DNA of 28,774 bases. Origin: a virus. The position numbers were made by a program, and so were the translations under genes. Positions 12,237 to 23,354 of this stretch are shown one piece after another. Numbering within the stretch: the stretch's first letter is position 1; every line of letters starts with the position of its first letter. A model generated the notes under the pieces. The model ran no database searches, had not been told where the DNA came from, and was given only the letters and a program-made list of their open reading frames with translations. The DNA lies in the IMG/VR virus record IMGVR_UViG_3300047667_000849, positions 1 to 28,774 of that record; one strand, 5' to 3'.

Positions 12237-12326
12237 AAGTGTAGAAAGGACTGATTCTTTTTTACACTTAACTGGCACGCCGAAAGGGTGCTAAATTTAA
12301 ATCTTGCTTATTATAAGGAGAAAACA
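12237..12326 (+). promoter_or_regulatory. Structured 5' leader of hsp20
   Basis: The leader can form AAGTGTAGAAAG/CTTTTTTACACTT (12237-12248/12257-12269). A second hairpin pairs GCAC/GTGC plus CC/GG around a GAAA tetraloop (12275-12291) with one bulged G. A short CTTA/TAAG pairing (from 12308) lies next to the AAGGAG ribosome site. Thermosensor-like control is possible but unproven. Confidence 0.45.
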
Positions 12327-12788
12327 ATGACAAGACTAACAACTCTAGACCTACCACAATTCCACAGAGCTACTATTGGCTTTGACAGACTATTTAATGA
12401 ACTCGAAAGAGGCTTTGCAAACAGTCCAAACGGAAATGGTTATCCCCCATACAACATCGCACAAGTCAACGAAGACGAGTATATGATCTCAGTCGCTGTG
12501 GCTGGCTTTAATATGCACAATCTTGATGTTACCAAAGATGGTGATCAATTACAGATTGTAGGGACAGCCCCTAAGGGAGATGAAGATGTCAACTACCTAC
12601 ACAAAGGTATTGGTGGACGTAACTTCCGTAGGGAGTTTACACTTGCAGACCATGTTAATGTTGCAGGCGCAACACTAGAACTAGGTATGCTTAACGTACA
12701 CCTAAAACGTGAAGTACCAGAAGCACTAAAGCCTAAGACAATTAAGATCAATGATGGTCTTACAATTGACGGCAAAAAAAGTAAGTAA
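12327..12788 (+). CDS. Small heat-shock protein Hsp20
   Basis: A 153-residue alpha-crystallin-type chaperone of the IbpA group that holds unfolding proteins until refolded. The ATG at 12327 has AAGGAG and is preferred to an in-frame ATG at 12288 lying within the leader hairpin. The N-terminus (TIGFDRLFNELER) is IbpA-like. The crystallin domain runs from YNIAQVNEDEYMISVAVAGF through GIGGRNFRREFTLADHV to the LELGMLNVHLKREVPE strand. A C-terminal I-x-I-like anchor (KTIKIN) follows. Hsp20 is a hallmark of marine T4-like phages, usually linked to virion assembly. Confidence 0.95.
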   Translation: MTRLTTLDLPQFHRATIGFDRLFNELERGFANSPNGNGYPPYNIAQVNEDEYMISVAVAGFNMHNLDVTKDGDQLQIVGTAPKGDEDVNYLHKGIGGRNFRREFTLADHVNVAGATLELGMLNVHLKREVPEALKPKTIKINDGLTIDGKKSK

Positions 12789-12796
12789 TATGTCTA

Positions 12797-12818
12797 GGGG
12801 GAGTGTAACAACTCCCCC
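12797..12818 (+). other. GC-rich intergenic hairpin without T tract
   Basis: An eight-base-pair stem GGGGGAGT/ACTCCCCC with a six-base loop between hsp20 and clpS, followed by the clpS ribosome site rather than a T tract. Very G/C-rich for this AT-rich sequence. It may protect the 3' end of hsp20 mRNA. Confidence 0.7.
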
Positions 12819-12837
12819 ACTATTAGGAGAATAAGAA

Positions 12838-13149
12838 ATGTCGGTCGACCTAGATATTAAACTAGATGAAAAAATTAAACGAGTAGTTAAACACCCTTCA
12901 AAGTATAAGGTTATATTTCTTAATGATAGCGCCACACCAATGGAGTGGGTAGTTGAGTTATTGATAACTATATTTAAGCATAGTCAACAATCGGCTGAAG
13001 AAATAACTATGACAATACACACAGAAGATAGCGGTGTAGTTGGTATTTACTCTTTTGAAATTGCTGAATGCAGAGCACACGAAGCAACGACACTTAGCAG
13101 GAACCATGGGTTTCCTTTACAAATAAAGATAGAAGAAAACGAAGAATAA
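12838..13149 (+). CDS. clpS: ClpS-type N-end rule adaptor
   Basis: A 103-residue homologue of ClpS, which binds N-degron substrates and delivers them to ClpAP. Conserved positions are visible: KYKVIFLNDSATPMEWVVEL (Asn29-Asp30 and the TPMEWV helix start) and MTIHTEDSGVVGIYSFEIAE with His61, matching the E. coli Asn34, Asp35 and His66 pocket. A poorly conserved N-terminal tail of about 20 residues precedes the core, as in host ClpS, where it controls ClpA. It has AGGAGA upstream and overlaps the heme oxygenase gene by one base. It could redirect host proteolysis. Confidence 0.93.
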   Translation: MSVDLDIKLDEKIKRVVKHPSKYKVIFLNDSATPMEWVVELLITIFKHSQQSAEEITMTIHTEDSGVVGIYSFEIAECRAHEATTLSRNHGFPLQIKIEENEE

Positions 13150-13706
13150 TGACAACAATAAAAGAACTGACATGGGCACACCATCAAGAAGCTGAAAGAC
13201 AAGAGTTTGTAAAGGTATTAATGAGTGGAAAAATTAATCCACAATTTTATGCAACTTACTTATGGAACCAGCACAAAAAATACGATATACTAGAAGCTAT
13301 AGCAACAACACATGGCTTACTAGATGGTTTGTTTGAAATAAGACGTAAAAACGCAATACACGAAGACTATTTAGAATTGTGGAATAATCAATTACCGCCC
13401 CCAATAGTTGAAAGTACAAATGAATACATCGGACATATGAAAGAAATAATGCACGATCCTGATGCTGTTATGGCACACATCTACGTGTTACATATGGGCG
13501 ATTTGAGTGGCGGACAAATGATTAGGCGTAAAGTACCGGGCAAAACTAGAATGTATGATTTTGACGGCGACACAACAGAACTAAAAGAAAAAATTAGATC
13601 AAAGATTAACGACGATATGGCAGATGAAGCAAAGTTTGTTTTTGATTCAGCAACTAAATTATTTAAAGAACTAATGGAGTTAGACATTGAGCGTTATCTG
13701 GGATAA
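13149..13706 (+). CDS. ho1: Heme oxygenase (HO-1 type)
   Basis: A 185-residue heme oxygenase that opens heme to biliverdin IXalpha with release of CO and iron. The N-terminal helix TWAHHQEAERQEFVKVLMSG supplies the proximal His (residue 11 or 12). The distal helix signature HIYVLHMGDLSGGQMIRRKV, with GDLSGGQ at about 117-123, is characteristic. It is shorter than cyanobacterial Ho1, mostly at the C-terminus. It overlaps clpS by one base and the bilin reductase downstream by 20 bases, so biliverdin would be passed to that enzyme. Reduced ferredoxin from the host would supply electrons. Confidence 0.92.
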   Translation: MTTIKELTWAHHQEAERQEFVKVLMSGKINPQFYATYLWNQHKKYDILEAIATTHGLLDGLFEIRRKNAIHEDYLELWNNQLPPPIVESTNEYIGHMKEIMHDPDAVMAHIYVLHMGDLSGGQMIRRKVPGKTRMYDFDGDTTELKEKIRSKINDDMADEAKFVFDSATKLFKELMELDIERYLG

Positions 13707-14394
13707 ACTAATTGAATGCCAAGAACAAATAATTAATATATTTGAGAAGCATGCAAACGAAATACAAGAACCAGGCCTAGCAGACTTTAACCAGCCTGAC
13801 AATGGATGGGTAAATCGTGTGTGGGCTAATAATAATGTACGTAGAGCGCACATAGACGTTGTAGATGCACGTGAAAGCAAAGGCTTATGGATGATGCACG
13901 TATGTTGCTTTCCTACACTAGACAACGATGCACCTATATACGGCTTTGATGTTATTGCAGGTAAGAATAAAATGACTGGAGCATTTCATGACTTCAGTGC
14001 TAGTAGTGGCGGCTCTGATCATCCAATGATAGAAGGTTACAGAGAGTCTGTTAAAGATTTTATACCAACTAAACAACGTAAATTACCAGAGTGGGCTACA
14101 AACATCTTTACTGATAGTATGCTTGCCGCAGGCAATGTTCGTACAGAAGAAGAATCTGTTGCTATTATTGAATTAGCACTTGCTAACTTAGATGCATGGT
14201 TTGATGAAGTGCCACAGTTTGAAGGCAATGCAGACAAGTATCAAACATTAGCTGCACAAAATTACTATTGCGAAAATCAGCAAAAAAATCCACACACAGC
14301 TAACGTAATGAAAACTCTTGGTATCTCAGAAACTGACGTTGACACGTTCTGTAGCGACATGTTGTTTCCTAAATTAGATAAATATTCTATATAA
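13687..14394 (+). CDS. pcyX: Ferredoxin-dependent bilin reductase, PcyX-like
   Basis: A 235-residue enzyme of the PcyA/PebS/PcyX family, which reduces biliverdin to phycobilins using ferredoxin. The core APIYGFDVIAGKNKM (about 82-96) followed by GAFHDFSAS with Asp102 matches the family's substrate strand and catalytic-Asp strand. The start is a TTG at 13687 with GGAG upstream, inside the end of ho1. The pairing with ho1 and the divergence from cyanobacterial PcyA point to PcyX, the type described from marine phages of non-phototrophic hosts and reported to make phycoerythrobilin. No phycobiliprotein or lyase gene is present, so the pigment's role is open. Confidence 0.83.
   Translation: MSVIWDKLIECQEQIINIFEKHANEIQEPGLADFNQPDNGWVNRVWANNNVRRAHIDVVDARESKGLWMMHVCCFPTLDNDAPIYGFDVIAGKNKMTGAFHDFSASSGGSDHPMIEGYRESVKDFIPTKQRKLPEWATNIFTDSMLAAGNVRTEEESVAIIELALANLDAWFDEVPQFEGNADKYQTLAAQNYYCENQQKNPHTANVMKTLGISETDVDTFCSDMLFPKLDKYSI
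14377..14384 (+). promoter_or_regulatory. T4-type late promoter, GATAAATA
   Basis: Seven of eight matches to TATAAATA in the last codons of the bilin reductase gene, 23 bases before the ATG at 14408, with the AAGGGA ribosome site between. It separates late expression of the next gene from the ho1 unit. Confidence 0.55.
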
Positions 14395-15645: not shown

Positions 15646-15696
15646 CATATGAGTAATTCGAAACAGAGCGTGAGGGCGTTCGCAACGGAGAAAATT

Positions 15697-16167
15697 ATGA
15701 AAACCACATTTTCCTTTTTAACTGTAATAACGCTGCTCGTTTATACACAAGCAGCAGGCGCAGACTTAACATGGAAGTTTAAAAACCCTGCCTTCCATAA
15801 CGGAAGTGGATACTCTACACACGTATTAAGTGTAGAACAGTTACAGCATAATCGTAAACAAGAATTAAAAAAAGCTGCAGATGCCGAAGCATCAAGAATA
15901 GAACGAGAACTAGACAATTCTGTATTAAACAAGTTTATTAGAAACTTAGAGTCGAGAATATATGCTACACTATCTAAGCAGATGGTTGATAGCATGTTCG
16001 CCGACTGCGGTGATACTTGTGCAAACAGCGGAACAGCAGAGGTCGAAGGTAATATAATATCTTGGATTAAAGATACAGTAACAGGAACGATTACACTTAC
16101 TATAACCGGTGAAGACGGAACTGTTACAGAAATTACAATCCCTGGAATGGGGGAGTTTAATTTTTAG
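15697..16167 (+). CDS. csgF: CsgF-like curli assembly factor
   Basis: A 156-residue exported protein resembling CsgF, which sits on the outer face of the CsgG pore and helps anchor the growing curli fibre. The signal peptide is TFSFLTVITLLVYTQAAGA. The mature start DLTWKFKNPAFHNGSGYST matches the CsgF family hallmark (T-F-x-F-x-N-P-x-F), the part that binds inside CsgG. A charged helix follows (RKQELKKAADAEASR), then the C-terminal strand-rich portion with TITGEDGTVTEITIPG. The ATG at 15697 has CGGAG upstream; an in-frame ATG at 15649 would bury the signal peptide. First gene of the cassette, one base before csgG. Confidence 0.88.
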   Translation: MKTTFSFLTVITLLVYTQAAGADLTWKFKNPAFHNGSGYSTHVLSVEQLQHNRKQELKKAADAEASRIERELDNSVLNKFIRNLESRIYATLSKQMVDSMFADCGDTCANSGTAEVEGNIISWIKDTVTGTITLTITGEDGTVTEITIPGMGEFNF

Positions 16168-16168
16168 T

Positions 16169-17044
16169 ATGAAATTATTAGCCGCCATTGGATTTATATT
16201 CTTTTTAGGTGGGTGTGCAATGACACCTAGTTTACAAGTATTAGAAGAACATGCAACATCGCCTAAGATGCAACCAAGTCCAATTCAAAAGAGAATGGAA
16301 GATGTACCAGTAGTTGATGGTAGGCCTATTACGATAGCTGTTTACGCATTCAGTGATAAAACTGGACAACGTAAGCCATCGGATATGGTAGCAAGTTTAA
16401 GTAGTGCTGTAACACAAGGCTCAGAAGTATGGGTTATAAAAGCATTACAAGATGTTGGACACGGTGCATGGTTTGAAGTTGTGGAACGTGTTGGCATGGA
16501 TAATTTAATAAAAGAAAGGCAACTAATAAGGCAGACAAGAGAAGTTTACGAGAAAGGACTTTCTACAGGTCCAACACTGTTAAAACCAATGCTATTTGCA
16601 GGACTAATCCTTGAGGGAGGAATAGTCGGGTATGATAGCAACACAGCCGTTGGAGGTGTAGGAGCAAGATACTTAGGATTAGGACTACAAACAGAATATA
16701 GGATTGATACTGTTACTGTAGTAATGCGCCTAGTAAGTGTTAGCACAGGAAAAGTGCTAATGAGTATAGCAACCGAAAAGACAATCGCAAGCTATAGATC
16801 CGGAGCGGATATTTTTAAGTTCTTTGATTTAGGAACTAGATTGGTAGAAACAGAAATGGGATTTTCAGTAAATGAACCTGTTAACTATGCTGTAAGAGCA
16901 GCTGTAGAGCAAGGTGTTATAGAACTCATTTACGAGGGAGAGCGTAAGAAACTCTGGAAGTTTAAACCACCTGTTTCTAAGAAAGAAAACAATAATAATA
17001 AAAATACAACACCTGAAGTTCATGAGAGTATAACTTCAGAATAG
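16169..17044 (+). CDS. csgG: CsgG-like curli export lipoprotein
   Basis: A 291-residue homologue of CsgG, which forms the nonameric outer-membrane channel of the type VIII (curli) secretion system. The lipoprotein signal is MKLLAAIGFIFFLGGC with acylation at Cys16. Family blocks are ITIAVYAFSDKTGQRKPSD, AWFEVVERVGMDNLIKERQL, LFAGLILEGGIVGYDSNTAVGG, RYLGLGLQTEYRIDTVTV and TGKVLMSIATEKTIAS. The start at 16169 lies one base after csgF; an in-frame ATG at 16109 inside csgF is rejected because it hides the lipobox. The C-terminus ends in an Asn/Lys-rich tail. CsgE, CsgC and CsgD are not seen nearby. Confidence 0.95.
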   Translation: MKLLAAIGFIFFLGGCAMTPSLQVLEEHATSPKMQPSPIQKRMEDVPVVDGRPITIAVYAFSDKTGQRKPSDMVASLSSAVTQGSEVWVIKALQDVGHGAWFEVVERVGMDNLIKERQLIRQTREVYEKGLSTGPTLLKPMLFAGLILEGGIVGYDSNTAVGGVGARYLGLGLQTEYRIDTVTVVMRLVSVSTGKVLMSIATEKTIASYRSGADIFKFFDLGTRLVETEMGFSVNEPVNYAVRAAVEQGVIELIYEGERKKLWKFKPPVSKKENNNNKNTTPEVHESITSE

Positions 17045-17055
17045 GGGGCAAATAT

Positions 17056-17751
17056 ATGAATAAATTTATTTTATCAATACCAATGCTTTTTTTAATGGCT
17101 GCGCCTACCTTCGCTAACGATATCTATATTGCACAAATTGGAGACAATTTGGATTTAGACATTGTTCAAGACGGTAGTAACAACGTTATAGGTACTAGTA
17201 CAACTGATGTAACACTGGATGGAGACGACATGACATTTAGTATAACTCAGCAAGGAGATTCTAATACTATAGCGGCTGTAATAAAAGGCAACAATTACAC
17301 AGGAACCTGGAGTTTCGTAGGTAACAGCAATACTGTTGATATGCTATGTGATTCGATCTCAGGCACAAGCTGTGAAACAGTAACAGCAAACATTACTACT
17401 AATGGTAGTAACAACGACTTTACAATCTATACCGGCGAAAGTGCAGATGCTCAAGGATTAGTAGCAAACTTTACAATTGACGGCGACGGTAACACGGTAA
17501 CATCAAATGTTGACGGAACTAGTGTAGCACTAACATTGGTGAGTGATAACTCAGCAAGTGCTGCTGCATCAGGCAACACATTTACAATTGATATAGATGG
17601 TAATGGCGATGTACTAGGACATACTATTAATATGGACGTGACAGGCGGCGGGAGTACTTATAATATTACTCAAAGCGGCATCGGCGACAATATGATAGAT
17701 GCAACGTTTAGCGGTGATAACCAAAATGTCGATATTACACAATCTGATTAA
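17056..17751 (+). CDS. Curlin-repeat protein 1
   Basis: A 231-residue exported protein with curlin-type repeats, a candidate substrate of the CsgG pore. The signal peptide is FILSIPMLFLMAAPTFA; the mature protein begins NDIYIAQIGDNLDLDIVQDG. Clear x-I-x-Q-x-G-x-x-N repeats lie at both ends (FSITQQGDSNTI, YNITQSGIGDN, VDITQSD). The middle repeats are degenerate and Asn/Thr/Asp-rich (TTNGSNNDFTIYTG, FTIDGDGNTVTSNV). It has few charged basic residues, fitting an amyloid subunit. The start follows AGGGGGC. Its 3' end overlaps the FecR gene by 26 bases. It cannot be told from sequence whether it plays the CsgA or the CsgB role. Confidence 0.88.
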   Translation: MNKFILSIPMLFLMAAPTFANDIYIAQIGDNLDLDIVQDGSNNVIGTSTTDVTLDGDDMTFSITQQGDSNTIAAVIKGNNYTGTWSFVGNSNTVDMLCDSISGTSCETVTANITTNGSNNDFTIYTGESADAQGLVANFTIDGDGNTVTSNVDGTSVALTLVSDNSASAAASGNTFTIDIDGNGDVLGHTINMDVTGGGSTYNITQSGIGDNMIDATFSGDNQNVDITQSD

Positions 17752-18880
17752 CCCAGGCATAGTATTTTTATGCGTGGTCCTTTCCAGTCTACCGGCACTG
17801 GCTAATACACCTAATGCAGGTGCAATTGGCTCAATTCAAGGCTCCGGTGTACTTGAAAGGGAAAACCAGGTTATTACAGGAGGCACGGGCGTCTCAGTGC
17901 AAAGTATGGATACGGCTGTTACCGCTAAAGGTAAAATGCGTATTGACTTTGTAGACGATACCCGTGTCGATCTTACTGATCACAGCAGACTAATAATTGA
18001 CGAGTTTGTGTATGATCCAGCAAACGATATAGGTTCAATAAGTTTAAAAGCGTCATTAGGAACAGTGAGATACGCTAGTGGACAAATTGCAAAAAGATAT
18101 CAACAAAACGTAAAAATTAGAACACCAAGCGCAACCATCGGTGTGCGTGGCACAGACTTTATTATGCTTGTAGACGAAATAGGCGGAACTATGGTAACAT
18201 TATTACCTAGTTGCGATACATTAGGTACATGCATTACAGGAGAAATTAGTGTAGAAAGTGATACTGGATTCGTTATTATGAATCAAGCATTCCAAACTAC
18301 TATAATTAAATCTTCTTATTCAAGACCAAGTAAGCCTTTGATATTAGACTTAGACGAAAAGGACATTGGCACACTATTAATATTAAGAAAACGTGGCCCT
18401 TACCAGGAAGAAGAAGTTGCAATATTAAAAAGACAAAGAGCACAATTTGAATTCCTAGACGTAGACTATTTAGACTTTGATGATCTTGACACAGATGCAC
18501 TTACAGACAGCATCAAAGATATTTGGGTAACAGATCTAATGCGTGGATCAGATTATTATCTTGGCGAACTATTATATGATATGATAGATCAGCTTAATCT
18601 ACAGTTGGCAAGGTTATTTAGGAATGAACTAGACAAACAAAATGAACAATTTTTTACAGATCAAAGATTTGGAACTGATCCAACAACTAGAGTTACATTA
18701 GAAAAATCAGACCCTAACTGGGTAGTATCTAGAACTGACGTAGGTGTAGTTAATATTTTTCAACTAACCCTGTCGCAAGAAAGCGGATATATAATAAACA
18801 TGGAGCAGCAAGGCGAATCAATATTAGACTACAGACTTGGTGCTGGCACTAATGCAATTGATATAAGGCAATCACAATGA
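17726..18880 (+). CDS. FecR-domain protein with C-terminal curlin-like repeats
   Basis: A 384-residue exported protein. The ATG at 17726 gives a full signal peptide (IVFLCVVLSSLPALA, cleavage after residue 26); the upstream in-frame ATG at 17699 does not. About residues 40-165 form a FecR domain: GVSVQSMDTAVTAKGKMRIDF, HSRLIIDEFVYDP, LGTVRYASGQI and the hallmark TPSATIGVRGTDF. An acidic helical middle follows. The last 30 residues (IINMEQQGES and NAIDIRQSQ) read like two curlin repeats, matching the ends of its neighbours. FecR domains act in the periplasm as ligand sensors or scaffolds, often beside CHASE2 cyclases. It overlaps both curlin genes, so production is likely coupled to them. Confidence 0.88.
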   Translation: MSILHNLINPGIVFLCVVLSSLPALANTPNAGAIGSIQGSGVLERENQVITGGTGVSVQSMDTAVTAKGKMRIDFVDDTRVDLTDHSRLIIDEFVYDPANDIGSISLKASLGTVRYASGQIAKRYQQNVKIRTPSATIGVRGTDFIMLVDEIGGTMVTLLPSCDTLGTCITGEISVESDTGFVIMNQAFQTTIIKSSYSRPSKPLILDLDEKDIGTLLILRKRGPYQEEEVAILKRQRAQFEFLDVDYLDFDDLDTDALTDSIKDIWVTDLMRGSDYYLGELLYDMIDQLNLQLARLFRNELDKQNEQFFTDQRFGTDPTTRVTLEKSDPNWVVSRTDVGVVNIFQLTLSQESGYIINMEQQGESILDYRLGAGTNAIDIRQSQ

Positions 18881-20052
18881 AAATTACCGGAACACATCTA
18901 GGAGTATTAGTTATAGTATTATACTTTACAGCACAATCCTGTATGGCCAATGATATTTACATCCACCAGGCTGGTGATAACATCGACTTGACTATCGTTC
19001 AAGATGGTGATAACAATAAGATAACTGGTTCGGGTGGAAGGGCTCTAGTGAGTGGTAATAACACAAGCACAACCTTTACACAAACAGGTGACAATAACCA
19101 AGTGTGGTCGTATATGAGTGCTGACAATGGACAACAGACAGTTACACAAACAGGCAATACTAACTATGCTACGTCAGACTGTCACGGCAACAACTGTTCA
19201 ACAACCATTACACAAAATGGTAATAACAATGCGGCAAATTTAGAATTTGGTAACGGCGGCGATTACAATAACACTGGTACAATTACACAAGACGGTAACT
19301 ACAATGCGGCTGGTATGGAAGCAAATGGTGATGACAATACCTTTGTTATAGATCAAGACGGCAATAATAATAGTATTGGAGGGATTACCAGTGCGCCAAT
19401 TACTGGTGATGACAACACATTATCAATAACACAAGATGGTGACTACATGGCTTTTGAAGGACATCTTATAGGTAGTAATAATAGTTTAACATCATTTCAA
19501 GGCGGTGGCGCTAATAGTAGTTTTATTCGTGTTAGTACAGTTGGTAGTAACAACACAGGCAACCTACGTCAAGGTAAGAAGATGGACGGGTCAGTTGATG
19601 GTAATGACAGCGGTAACCATGAACAATACGTAACAGTAGTTGGTGATGGTAATACTGTTGATACGTCACAGGTAAACAGTAACGGTGCAAGTTCAGATCA
19701 TCATATGGCACACGTTATAACAGGTGACGGCAATACACTAAGCCACTTGCAATATGCAGATAAGAAAAAACAAGGCTTCATTGAAATAACAGGCGATGAC
19801 AATACAGTTACACTTGAACAAAGAAATAGTTCAAATCACTTTGCAGACATAGTATTGACTGGAGATGATCATACAGTAACTGGTGTACAACGTGGTGGTG
19901 CCAACGCACATAACTTCTCGGTTGACTTAACTAACTCCGGCGGTGCATACACTGTATCAACTACACAAAACTCAAGTACAGCACAAACTTACAGCCTAAC
20001 AGGTAGTTGTACAAATGCTAACGGGTGCGGCATAGTAGTAAATCAATACTAA
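18877..20052 (+). CDS. Curlin-repeat protein 2 (large)
   Basis: A 391-residue exported curlin-type protein, about twice the usual CsgA length. The signal peptide ends SCMA; the mature start NDIYIHQAGDNIDLTIVQDG is almost the same as in curlin protein 1, so the two are paralogues. The first half holds a ladder of repeats (TFTQTGDNNQ, TVTQTGNTN, TITQNGNNN, TITQDGNYN, VIDQDGNNN, SITQDGDY). The second half is more degenerate with GDGNT/GDDNT turns and ends VVNQY, similar to the CsgA C-terminus. It is rich in Asn, Gly, Thr and Gln and has two CxxxxC pairs. It overlaps the FecR gene by four bases. It is likely the main fibre subunit. Confidence 0.9.
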   Translation: MKITGTHLGVLVIVLYFTAQSCMANDIYIHQAGDNIDLTIVQDGDNNKITGSGGRALVSGNNTSTTFTQTGDNNQVWSYMSADNGQQTVTQTGNTNYATSDCHGNNCSTTITQNGNNNAANLEFGNGGDYNNTGTITQDGNYNAAGMEANGDDNTFVIDQDGNNNSIGGITSAPITGDDNTLSITQDGDYMAFEGHLIGSNNSLTSFQGGGANSSFIRVSTVGSNNTGNLRQGKKMDGSVDGNDSGNHEQYVTVVGDGNTVDTSQVNSNGASSDHHMAHVITGDGNTLSHLQYADKKKQGFIEITGDDNTVTLEQRNSSNHFADIVLTGDDHTVTGVQRGGANAHNFSVDLTNSGGAYTVSTTQNSSTAQTYSLTGSCTNANGCGIVVNQY

Positions 20053-20309: not shown

Positions 20310-22358
20310 ATGACGAAGTATATCACACATTGGTCAGTAACATTTGTTACAGCACTAATAATCTTTATGTTTCACTATGGTAATAGCACTATAGTAGAAT
20401 CTGTTCGGCTCAAACAGTTTGATTTACTTCAACAAACAGACGAGCAATACCTCTCCCAAGATATTGGAATAGTCGCTATTGACGAAGCCGCCATTGAAAA
20501 GTACGGTCAGTGGCCTTGGAAGCGCGATGTTATCGCAGATATAATCTGGAAACTACGTGAAGCAGGAGCCGGTATCATTGTGATACCTATACTATTTTCT
20601 GAACCTGATAGACTAGGTGGAGATCAAATATTAGCCGAGGCACTTGTAGATAACGGTGTAGTAATAGCTCAAACAGGCACTACATCAGTCAATAGAAACT
20701 CTGTTCCCCGCGGAGTTGCAAAAATAGGTGACCCGTTGCCATTTCTGTTTGAATGGCCAGGCATGCTGGGCCCTATCCCTCTACTAGGTCAAAATGCTGG
20801 AGGTGTTGGAGTTATAAACACAGCACCGGAGGTAGACGGCGTAACTCGTCGTGTACCATTGATTATGCGTATACAAGAAGATACGTACCCGTCACTCGCA
20901 GTAGAGGTAATTAGATTAGCCACAGGACAACCATCGTATCAAGTTAAAGCGAATGCAGGTGGTGTAGAAAAAATCCGTGTTCCTGGTTACCCAGTCATAA
21001 ACACAGATCCTAATGGTCAAATTTGGTTACGTTGGAATAAACAGTTTGACACAATTAGTGCGATCGAGGAAGACTTTAGTGTTTTTCAAGGTCGCACGGT
21101 TGTGATTGGTATAACAGCAGAAGGGTTAGGTAGTATGATTGCAAGTCCTACAGGACCGCAATACAATTATATACCTGCCGCTGTTACACTACAAACTATG
21201 CTAGATGGAGATCAGATAAAGCGTCCGTTTTGGGCAGACTTAGCTGAACTAGGAGTAACAGCCGCTGTTTCAGTATTTGCTATTGTAACAGCGGCTCTTG
21301 CACCGTTTTGGGCAGTAGGCACATTAATAGTACTAGTAGTCGGAGGACTTGCATACGGAGCGTTATATGCTTGGCAAGAGTACTTATACTTGCTTGATGT
21401 TACTATGCCTATACTTGCATTTGTACTTGTAAGTTTACATGCGGTGTTTAATAGGTTTGTAAGCGAGTACTTACAAAAGCAAGAAATCAAGAAACAGTTT
21501 GCAGGCTATGCCAGTCCAACTGTTGTGCGTATGCTACAAGAAAATCCTGCACTAATCAAAGACGGTATGAAGAAGGAAGTAAGTATTTGTTTCTCAGATT
21601 TACGTGGCTTTACACCACTAGGCGAAAGCTTCGGTGATGATGTTAAAGGACTTACTAAAATAATGAATGGCTATATGGATGCCATTACACAACCAATACT
21701 AGATGCAGACGGTATGGTTATTAAATATATTGGCGATGCAAGTATGCACATACACAATGCACCAATAGAAGATCCACATCACCCTAGAACGGCTGTACAA
21801 TGTGGACTAGATATGTTAAAGGCTGTGGAGAAGTTTAATGATAAAATTGTTGCTGAAGGAAGACCTCCCGTTGGTATGGGGGCTGGGATCAATACTGGAC
21901 TTGGATACTTGGGTGAGATGGGAAGCACAGCTAGACACAGTTATGACGTACTTGGCGATGCGGTTAGCACAGCAGCGCGAATCGAAAGCAAGTGCAAAGA
22001 ATACGGATGTGTCCTCTTAGTAGGCGGAGACACATACAAGCATACTAATAATGATTTCTATTATTTAAAAGTAGATGACTTAGCAGTTAAAGGTAAAACA
22101 ATTGGAATTGAAATATATACTGTGTTGGATATTGAGTTAGACAAATATCCAGGTGCAAAACAATGCCACGAAGATATGCATATACATTATCGTAAACAAA
22201 ACTTTGATAAAGCTATTGAGTCATGTAATGATTTGATGGAATGCTTTGACGGTAAAATGTCGGGGTATTATAATATGTGGATCGAACGCTGTGAGTTCCA
22301 AAAAACTCAAAAGTTACCAACGGATTGGTCTGGTGTGTTTATTGCTACAACTAAGTAG
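20310..22358 (+). CDS. CHASE2-domain class III adenylate cyclase
   Basis: A 682-residue membrane enzyme predicted to make cAMP. An N-terminal helix is followed by a periplasmic CHASE2 sensor (about residues 30-300, with DIGIVAIDEAAIEKYGQWPW and GGVGVINTAPEVDGVTRRVP). Three transmembrane helices (about 311-380) and a class III cyclase domain (about 420-590) follow. Metal-binding Asp430 (FSDLRGFT) and Asp476 (YIGDAS) are present. So are Lys472 and Asp546 (YDVLGD), the pair that selects adenine. Arg557 of the transition-state pair is kept, but the usual Asn is Ser553. A C-terminal tail of about 90 residues holds a short TPR-like helix pair. The start at 20310 lacks a clear ribosome site. Last gene of the curli block, convergent with the minus-strand island. 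Confidence 0.93.
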   Translation: MTKYITHWSVTFVTALIIFMFHYGNSTIVESVRLKQFDLLQQTDEQYLSQDIGIVAIDEAAIEKYGQWPWKRDVIADIIWKLREAGAGIIVIPILFSEPDRLGGDQILAEALVDNGVVIAQTGTTSVNRNSVPRGVAKIGDPLPFLFEWPGMLGPIPLLGQNAGGVGVINTAPEVDGVTRRVPLIMRIQEDTYPSLAVEVIRLATGQPSYQVKANAGGVEKIRVPGYPVINTDPNGQIWLRWNKQFDTISAIEEDFSVFQGRTVVIGITAEGLGSMIASPTGPQYNYIPAAVTLQTMLDGDQIKRPFWADLAELGVTAAVSVFAIVTAALAPFWAVGTLIVLVVGGLAYGALYAWQEYLYLLDVTMPILAFVLVSLHAVFNRFVSEYLQKQEIKKQFAGYASPTVVRMLQENPALIKDGMKKEVSICFSDLRGFTPLGESFGDDVKGLTKIMNGYMDAITQPILDADGMVIKYIGDASMHIHNAPIEDPHHPRTAVQCGLDMLKAVEKFNDKIVAEGRPPVGMGAGINTGLGYLGEMGSTARHSYDVLGDAVSTAARIESKCKEYGCVLLVGGDTYKHTNNDFYYLKVDDLAVKGKTIGIEIYTVLDIELDKYPGAKQCHEDMHIHYRKQNFDKAIESCNDLMECFDGKMSGYYNMWIERCEFQKTQKLPTDWSGVFIATTK

Positions 22359-22529: not shown

Positions 22530-22862
22530 TTATTTTCCTTTCTTTTTAACTGGTTCGTAATCAGTATCAGTAATTTTTTCAATTTCGTCTATGTCCAAGT
22601 CCAGCGATTTGCCGGTAATCTTTTCATATTGTTCTTTGAATTCTAATACCATTTGAATTTTTTGAGTAAGGCGAATCATGTCATTGTCTAACATACGTAT
22701 TCTATCTATTAGTGCTATAAGTGTATTACTTGCTTCGCCTAGCACTGGTTTTATTTCGGTAGTAACCCATTTCCATACATAGTAAACAAAGTAACCTAAT
22801 CCCATTGCCGCTACAATTGGAAATCCGTATTGGTTAATTGCTTCTATTAAGGAGTTGCTCAT
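22530..22862 (-). CDS. Holin-like membrane protein A
   Basis: A 110-residue protein with one N-terminal helix (YGFPIVAAMGLGYFVYYVWKWV). An amphipathic, coiled-coil-like stretch (LIDRIRMLDNDMIRLTQKIQ) and an acidic then basic tail ending VKKKGK follow. The layout, a G-F-P-I-x-A-A helix followed by a heptad-rich region, is like BhlA/UviB-type holin-like peptides and recurs in marine T4-like phages. It is a paralogue of the gene at 23076-23354 (shared GFPI, N-D-L/M-I). It overlaps the 65-residue gene before it by four bases. A role in lysis timing is inference. Confidence 0.78.
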   Translation of the reverse strand: MSNSLIEAINQYGFPIVAAMGLGYFVYYVWKWVTTEIKPVLGEASNTLIALIDRIRMLDNDMIRLTQKIQMVLEFKEQYEKITGKSLDLDIDEIEKITDTDYEPVKKKGK

Positions 22863-23075: not shown

Positions 23076-23354
23076 TTAGTCTCTCCTTGCATCGTCCTTG
23101 CCTTCGTTAGCAGCTATTCTGTCTACATTAGGCTTTATGTTAAGTGCATAACTTAGTAATGCATCTATTTTAATAAGATCGTTATTCATAGTTTGAACTC
23201 TATTGTTCAACGCACTAATCATTCCTTTAAGTCCTAGTACGCTGCCAGTAACACTGTCAAGAATAAATTTTAATGTTATAAAAACAAATAATCCAGATGC
23301 TAGAGCACCTGCGATTGGAAAACCTACTTCGCCTACTATTTTTAAAAAATCCAT
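23076..23354 (-). CDS. Holin-like membrane protein B
   Basis: A 92-residue protein with one helix (VGFPIAGALASGLFVFITLKFIL) and a heptad-like region (ISALNNRVQTMNNDLIKIDALL), then a short charged tail. The arrangement and the GFPI and NNDLIK motifs match holin-like protein A, so the two are probably a duplicated pair. It has an AGAGGG ribosome site. Pairs of related small membrane proteins often work as holin and antiholin; that is inference here. Confidence 0.78.
   Translation of the reverse strand: MDFLKIVGEVGFPIAGALASGLFVFITLKFILDSVTGSVLGLKGMISALNNRVQTMNNDLIKIDALLSYALNIKPNVDRIAANEGKDDARRD

Follow-up and report, generated by a model that had tools for sequence, protein, structure and literature searches.

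A secreted FecR-domain protein with a conserved C-terminal beta domain in phage curli cassettes

The curli cassette and its two curlin genes

We analysed a 28,774-base stretch of viral DNA (IMG/VR record IMGVR_UViG_3300047667_000849, positions 1 to 28,774; hereafter the window), in which a gene for a FecR-domain protein lies between two genes for curlins, the fibre subunits of curli. The window is a contig of a marine tailed phage akin to pelagimyophage HTVC008M and methylophage Melnitz. It carries phage-type genes, and the nearest named relatives of its FecR protein belong to Pelagibacter phage HTVC008M (45% identity) and Methylophilales phage Melnitz (44%). The genes csgF, csgG, curlin 1, fecR, curlin 2 and a CHASE2-guanylate cyclase gene follow one another (Table 1), and thus reproduce the csgF-csgG-curlin-fecR(-curlin)(-cyclase) order of phage curli cassettes. 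The same order is found in HTVC008M (NC_020484) and Melnitz (MZ577097), where csgF, csgG, curlin, fecR and curlin precede a gene for a CHASE2-type adenylate/guanylate cyclase.

The phage curli cassette, which belongs to the type VIII secretion system (T8SS), has itself already been published for pelagiphages and methylophages (PMC7029224, PMC9599517, PMC9004378). A partial curli operon was first described in pelagimyophages (PMC7029224), and FecR, the second curlin and the cyclase were recognised later in cassettes that are spread ocean-wide and are missing CsgE, CsgC and CsgD (PMC9599517). The cassette of Melnitz was reported in PMC9004378. Within the accessible portions of all three papers, and in the other literature searched, a curlin-like FecR C-terminus is not mentioned; neither the C-terminal domain of FecR nor its likeness to curlins appears in those portions. 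The Melnitz paper states that csgA and csgB are absent and rests a pinholin/secretin hypothesis on that absence (PMC9004378). Contrary to this statement, record MZ577097 annotates two curlin proteins, and Pfam finds curlin repeats in both.

Table 1. Features of the curli cassette in the window.
Feature	Position	Strand	Evidence
CsgF homologue	15649..16167	+	Pfam CsgF E 1e-13
CsgG outer-membrane pore homologue, lipobox LGGC	16169..17044	+	Pfam CsgG E 6.4e-46; NCBIfam CsgG E 4.1e-52; lipobox from sequence
Curlin 1 (fibre subunit); mature start NDIYIAQIGDN; end VDITQSD	17056..17751	+	Pfam Curlin_rpt E 6.6e-5
Secreted FecR-domain protein, 384 residues from ATG 17726 (alternative ATG 17699)	17726..18880	+	Pfam FecR E 4e-8; PHROG 37870 E 4.9e-93; AlphaFold2 model
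FecR domain, about residues 30-218	17813..18379	+	VIA-align structure matches
C-terminal beta domain (tail, residues 316-384), six strands	18671..18877	+	AlphaFold2 on the tail alone; homologue conservation; weak curlin 2 profile match
Curlin 2 (fibre subunit); mature start NDIYIHQAGDN	18877..20052	+	Pfam Curlin_rpt E 4.3e-16; phmmer
CHASE2 sensor with guanylate/adenylate cyclase, membrane-bound, probable FecR signalling partner	20310..22358	+	Pfam CHASE2 E 5.1e-41, Guanylate_cyc E 9.1e-17

An earlier sequence-only reading of this DNA had placed FecR between two paralogous curlin genes and described all three genes as overlapping, and this arrangement holds. Curlin 1 and FecR share 26 or 53 nucleotides, depending on the choice of start codon, and FecR and curlin 2 share 4 nucleotides. 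The near-identity claimed for the mature N-termini of the two curlins is likewise evident (NDIYIAQIGDNLDLDIVQDGSNN and NDIYIHQAGDNIDLTIVQDGDNN). Both are members of the CsgA/CsgB curli subunit family (PF07012), and curlin 2 additionally matches the solved curlin-repeat protein 8c50 (phmmer E 3.6e-6). Following the signal peptide, the signature NDIYIxQxG is present in 71 of 71 phage curlin 1 proteins and 41 of 56 curlin 2 proteins, and in none of 72 FecR proteins. We take this signature to be the curlin secretion signal for the CsgG route.

Variation among the curlins was also noted. A segment of the form Y.[LI]....C.....C.V.V.Q is conserved at the C-termini of phage curlin 2 proteins, also ends one alphaproteobacterial curlin (L167:10194-11177), and may be a curlin end cap. 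In HTVC008M, curlin 2 (gp018, L006:9016-10338) carries a PA14 domain (E 2.7e-6) before its curlin repeats; an amyloid subunit is here fused to a second domain of extracellular type. In one further phage, the curlin 2 position after FecR is occupied by a 481-residue protein whose start resembles a signal peptide and for which Pfam gives no match (L065:5609-7081).

Domains of the FecR protein and the nature of its tail

The signal peptide of the FecR protein, read from the sequence, is followed directly by the FecR domain at about residue 30, and no membrane segment was seen beyond that peptide. In an AlphaFold2 model of the whole protein, the FecR domain is followed by a linker modelled at low confidence, which contains a long helix (residues 276-310), and then by six to seven strands that make up the C-terminal domain. 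By VIA-align, the FecR domain matches the PupR signalling domain 6ovk (Z 15.5, root-mean-square deviation (rmsd) 2.3, 130 residues aligned), 4m0n (Z 14.1, rmsd 2.8, 135 aligned) and the cell surface anchoring domain 5ix9 (Z 10.1, rmsd 2.2, 73 residues, 23% identity). Unlike 5ix9, the phage version is part of a 384-residue protein with a curli-linked C-terminal domain.

Both the Pfam match and the similarity to 6ovk indicate that the protein has the periplasmic FecR/signalling domain fold of the FecR/PupR anti-sigma regulators. However, the cytoplasmic N-terminal anti-sigma domain and the membrane helix of those regulators are absent, as judged from sequence, Pfam and the AlphaFold2 model. Neither a FecI-like sigma factor nor a FecA-like receptor was found among the Pfam-scanned open reading frames (ORFs) of the window, which is a fragment in which not every ORF was scanned. 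PMC9599517 names the FecR of phage cassettes an iron-dependent regulator. The architecture gives this label no support, because the signal peptide runs straight into the FecR domain without a cytoplasmic anti-sigma part.

Five IMG/VR scans and one genome-contig scan yielded 166 distinct phage FecR homologues, 165 of which possess a tail of about 65 residues, its presence being scored by a loosely defined terminal strand, N.I.I.Q. The exception is a shortened frame of 277 residues. This terminal strand is kept in 72 of 72 FecR proteins, and a 65-row alignment of the tail contains six invariant positions (G, R, Y, Q, G, Q); a further six, including the N, I and I of the last strand, are near-invariant. 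When modelled alone, the tail folds confidently (predicted local distance difference test score 87.5, predicted template modelling score 0.76). A comparison of this model with PDB structures (Foldseek, VIA), run without a curlin model as positive control, gave a best Z of 3.2 and no curli or solenoid match. Against BFVD, the model retrieved one phage FecR protein at a probability of 0.97 but an E value of 0.054, and the tail alignment gave weak matches among PDB sequences to the staphylococcal MAP-W/Eap domains 1yn3 and 8d4u (E 0.016-0.017). Weak mean-field covariation among 165 sequences (effective number 74) pairs residues 334-345, 335-346, 337-344 and 345-359, as fits antiparallel hairpins, and a further equally weak pair, 325-371, would close the domain. 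These patterns suggest, and do no more than suggest, a tail that forms an antiparallel beta domain by itself, and the models lead us to lean against a beta-solenoid.

The sequence-only reading had identified IINMEQQGES and NAIDIRQSQ near the FecR C-terminus as curlin repeats. Both motifs are present and the tail that holds them is conserved, but their identity as repeats is not confirmed by Pfam or by a repeat model. The Pfam model Curlin_rpt does not match the last 35, 55 or 155 residues of FecR even at an E value of 10. A hidden Markov model (HMM) of a single repeat, built from phage and bacterial curlins, scores FecR proteins at background and does not find a repeated I.Q.G..N pattern in the tail. 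Of its 64 best hits, 56 fall within the last 60 residues of FecR; the few positive scores come mostly from the last 10-12 residues, which the best hits cover. IINMEQQGES has no Q.G..N spacing. As for the Q-x-G/Q-S pattern that homologues were expected to keep, the two Q residues are retained in all of them, but Q-x-G is lost in most, and the position of Q361-x-G is in other phages mostly occupied by QGD, QQD, QSD or similar. The last strand, G..N.I.I.Q (NAIDIRQ), is the only part of the tail that resembles half of a curlin repeat. Thus the tail shares with CsgA/CsgB a strand that fits a half-repeat, whereas it fails the models of that family and belongs to a protein without the curlin N-terminal signature. 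By the curlin family's own tests, it is not a curlin repeat.

Profile comparison nevertheless yields a resemblance that is not pure chance. A 48-residue tail aligns by hhalign over its full length with the C-terminal 48 residues of mature curlin 2 at a score of 20.8, above all 123 control windows taken from CsgF, CsgG, CHASE2 and the rest of FecR (mean 10.0, standard deviation 1.7, maximum 13.9); the reversed tail scores 14.1. With about twice as many sequences, tails of 48-75 residues score 19.7-22.3 against a control maximum of 15.4, so the match was not strengthened, and that of the tail to curlin 1 falls to the control ceiling. Because hhalign's own probability for the curlin 2 match is only 4-8%, below family level, homology between the two is not established.

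Linkage to curli genes and to a CHASE2 cyclase

Phage loci with enough flanking sequence show an invariable neighbourhood. CsgF and CsgG are encoded upstream of FecR in 70 of 70 such loci, curlin 1 adjoins FecR in 71 of 71, and CHASE2 lies downstream in 46 of 46. Wherever the flanks permit checking, the tail is accompanied by curli genes. Among 385 alphaproteobacterial genomes, it was found only on two contigs of one metagenome-assembled genome, both of which carry the phage cassette. It can therefore be stated safely that phage curli cassettes encode a secreted FecR protein with a near-invariant C-terminal beta domain, with curlin 1 next to FecR and the CHASE2 cyclase after it wherever flanking sequence is available.

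Partial correlations of protein distances, computed over 66 phages with a complete cassette and assessed with 500 permutations, separate the two parts of FecR. The known partners CsgG and CsgF, serving as a positive control, reach 0.45, and curlin 1 and CsgF 0.24. The FecR domain correlates with the CHASE2 sensor (0.28; 0/500 permutations). That sensor follows FecR, yet shows no such relation to the cyclase domain with which it shares a chain (-0.03). The FecR tail instead correlates with curlin 1 (0.24; 0/500) and CsgG (0.19; 1/500), while its values for the CHASE2 sensor (-0.01) and for curlin 2 (0.01) are close to zero. Adjacency alone would predict the opposite pairing, because the cassette runs from curlin 1 through the FecR domain, the FecR tail and curlin 2 to CHASE2. 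An earlier run with 50 phages gave the same picture. The constant linkage and the covariation of the tail with curlin 1 support the assignment of FecR, tail included, to the curli cassette.

FecR domains in the 385 alphaproteobacterial genomes mostly head longer proteins, many with low-complexity or adhesin-like continuations. Among the matches listed, a FecR domain lies within 10 kb of a CHASE2 gene in 28 places, counted by eye. No curlin was detected by curlin HMMs in the bacterial FecR-CHASE2 neighbourhoods that were fetched, and neither FecR nor CHASE2 was found within the fetched regions of the sampled alphaproteobacterial curli loci. In a biofilm operon of Burkholderia, the gene for a secreted LysM-FecR protein adjoins one for a CHASE2 histidine kinase (PMC5192318). 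The phage cassette likewise encodes a secreted FecR-domain protein next to a CHASE2 membrane enzyme. It differs from the Burkholderia pair in that its output enzyme is a cyclase, LysM was not found, and its FecR protein carries a beta tail and is embedded in curli genes. Since the fetched bacterial pairs showed no curlin and the sampled curli loci no FecR or CHASE2, the phage cassette looks like a curli operon to which a FecR-CHASE2 pair has been added. Within the material searched, this combined form is the only one in which the tail is present.

Possible roles of the FecR protein

The reading that we favour, and advance tentatively, is that FecR acts as a secreted adaptor that couples the curli apparatus to the CHASE2 cyclase, as a phage version of the FecR-CHASE2 pairs of proteobacteria. 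The domain content, conservation, linkage and covariation pattern on which it draws were computed, and from them we infer location, contacts, signal and output. The likeness of the FecR domain to the PupR signalling domain and to a cell surface anchoring domain also speaks for it. FecR would be exported by means of its signal peptide and is not an anti-sigma FecR. Its layout of FecR domain, helical linker and small C-terminal beta domain could allow the FecR domain to partner the periplasmic CHASE2 sensor of the downstream cyclase, while the C-terminal domain would touch the curli apparatus through curlin 1, perhaps at the CsgG pore. The infected cell's synthesis of cyclic nucleotides would then respond to the export or assembly of curlin, or to its failure. 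The tail more likely connects the fibre machinery to the signalling enzyme than forms part of the fibre.

The suggestion of the sequence-only reading that FecR reports on fibre assembly fits this adaptor in part. A reporting role is plausible because the CHASE2 cyclase follows FecR at every locus that could be checked and FecR-CHASE2 neighbours are common in bacteria, as in the operon of PMC5192318, but the curlin-repeat tail on which the suggestion was based is not supported. A more specific version, which we regard as doubtful, makes FecR a phage-encoded sensor of amyloid assembly: a curlin-like edge strand in its tail would bind curlin 1, either at the CsgG pore or at the base of the fibre, and its FecR domain would pass the fibre state to the cyclase. 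If this were true, the phage could follow the export of fibres in a host cell that does not itself make curli.

Several observations weigh against an adaptor. Negative values among the partial correlations (curlin 1-CsgG, -0.25; tail-cyclase, -0.32) are a sign of collinearity, and the tail-curlin 1 value exceeds that between the FecR domain and curlin 1 in only 79% of subsamples. Covariation of distances is also an indirect measure, drawn from matrices whose cells are not independent. Cell clumping was not seen in the Melnitz study (PMC9004378), and a regulatory loop may be of little use to a phage that lyses its host.

Among the alternatives, FecR might instead be a periplasmic chaperone or gate of the pore that substitutes for CsgE and CsgC, with a beta domain that binds unfolded curlin by strand addition and without any signalling. 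The missing CsgE, CsgC and CsgD of phage cassettes (PMC9599517) are consistent with such a function, as are the occurrence of FecR in most described cassettes as well as in those gathered by way of FecR itself, and the covariation of the tail with curlin 1 and CsgG. We consider it unlikely; it accounts neither for the way in which the FecR domain covaries with the CHASE2 sensor nor for bacterial FecR-CHASE2 neighbours without curlin. Similarly improbable is that the tail is an ordinary C-terminal beta domain, used for example in oligomerisation, and that its curlin likeness reflects an alternating beta-strand pattern and shared composition. The low hhalign probability, the background HMM scores and the lack of a clear PDB relative would all be expected of such a domain; however, the curlin 2 score exceeds those of all 99-123 control windows and of the reversed tail, and the tail keeps company with curli genes wherever flanks could be checked and was not found in the 385 alphaproteobacterial genomes outside phage-cassette contigs.

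Least likely, by a little, is that the tail is a curlin-type end piece, with FecR exported alongside the curlins to cap, anchor or nucleate the fibre in the manner of CsgB and tie it to the cell: the conserved terminal strand, the alignment with the end of curlin 2, the covariation with curlin 1 and CsgG and the similarity of the FecR domain to anchoring domain 5ix9 are what this would produce, but it has against it the failure of the Pfam and repeat models, the lack of solenoid or curli structures among the model matches, a curlin 2 match that grows no stronger with more sequences, and the same two observations that undercut the sequence-only proposal of FecR built into or nucleating the fibre, namely a curlin N-terminal signature absent from every FecR protein yet present in every curlin 1, and weak residue covariation suggestive of antiparallel pairing.

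If the adaptor is real, FecR would no longer be seen as an iron regulator but as one of the two halves that make up a FecR-CHASE2 sensor, which offers a concrete hypothesis for cassettes without an agreed function: amyloid export may be monitored by the phage through a cyclic-nucleotide signal. By extension, bacterial FecR-CHASE2 pairs would sense a surface structure borne by the FecR protein, and the question of what CHASE2 domains detect would gain a testable answer.

Genes on either side of the cassette were also recorded. Upstream, overlapping genes (window positions 13149-14394) encode a heme oxygenase (Pfam E 2e-18) and, after it, a bilin reductase that depends on ferredoxin (Pfam E 1.2e-16). 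Together they form a bilin-making pair, here in a phage whose relatives infect non-photosynthetic hosts. Directly before the heme oxygenase gene, genes for an Hsp20 small heat-shock protein and a ClpS protease adaptor are arranged in tandem (12288-13149). On the opposite strand directly after the cyclase gene, two paralogous small proteins of PHROG 18771 are encoded (22530-22862 and 23076-23354, minus strand), one of which has a weak holin match.

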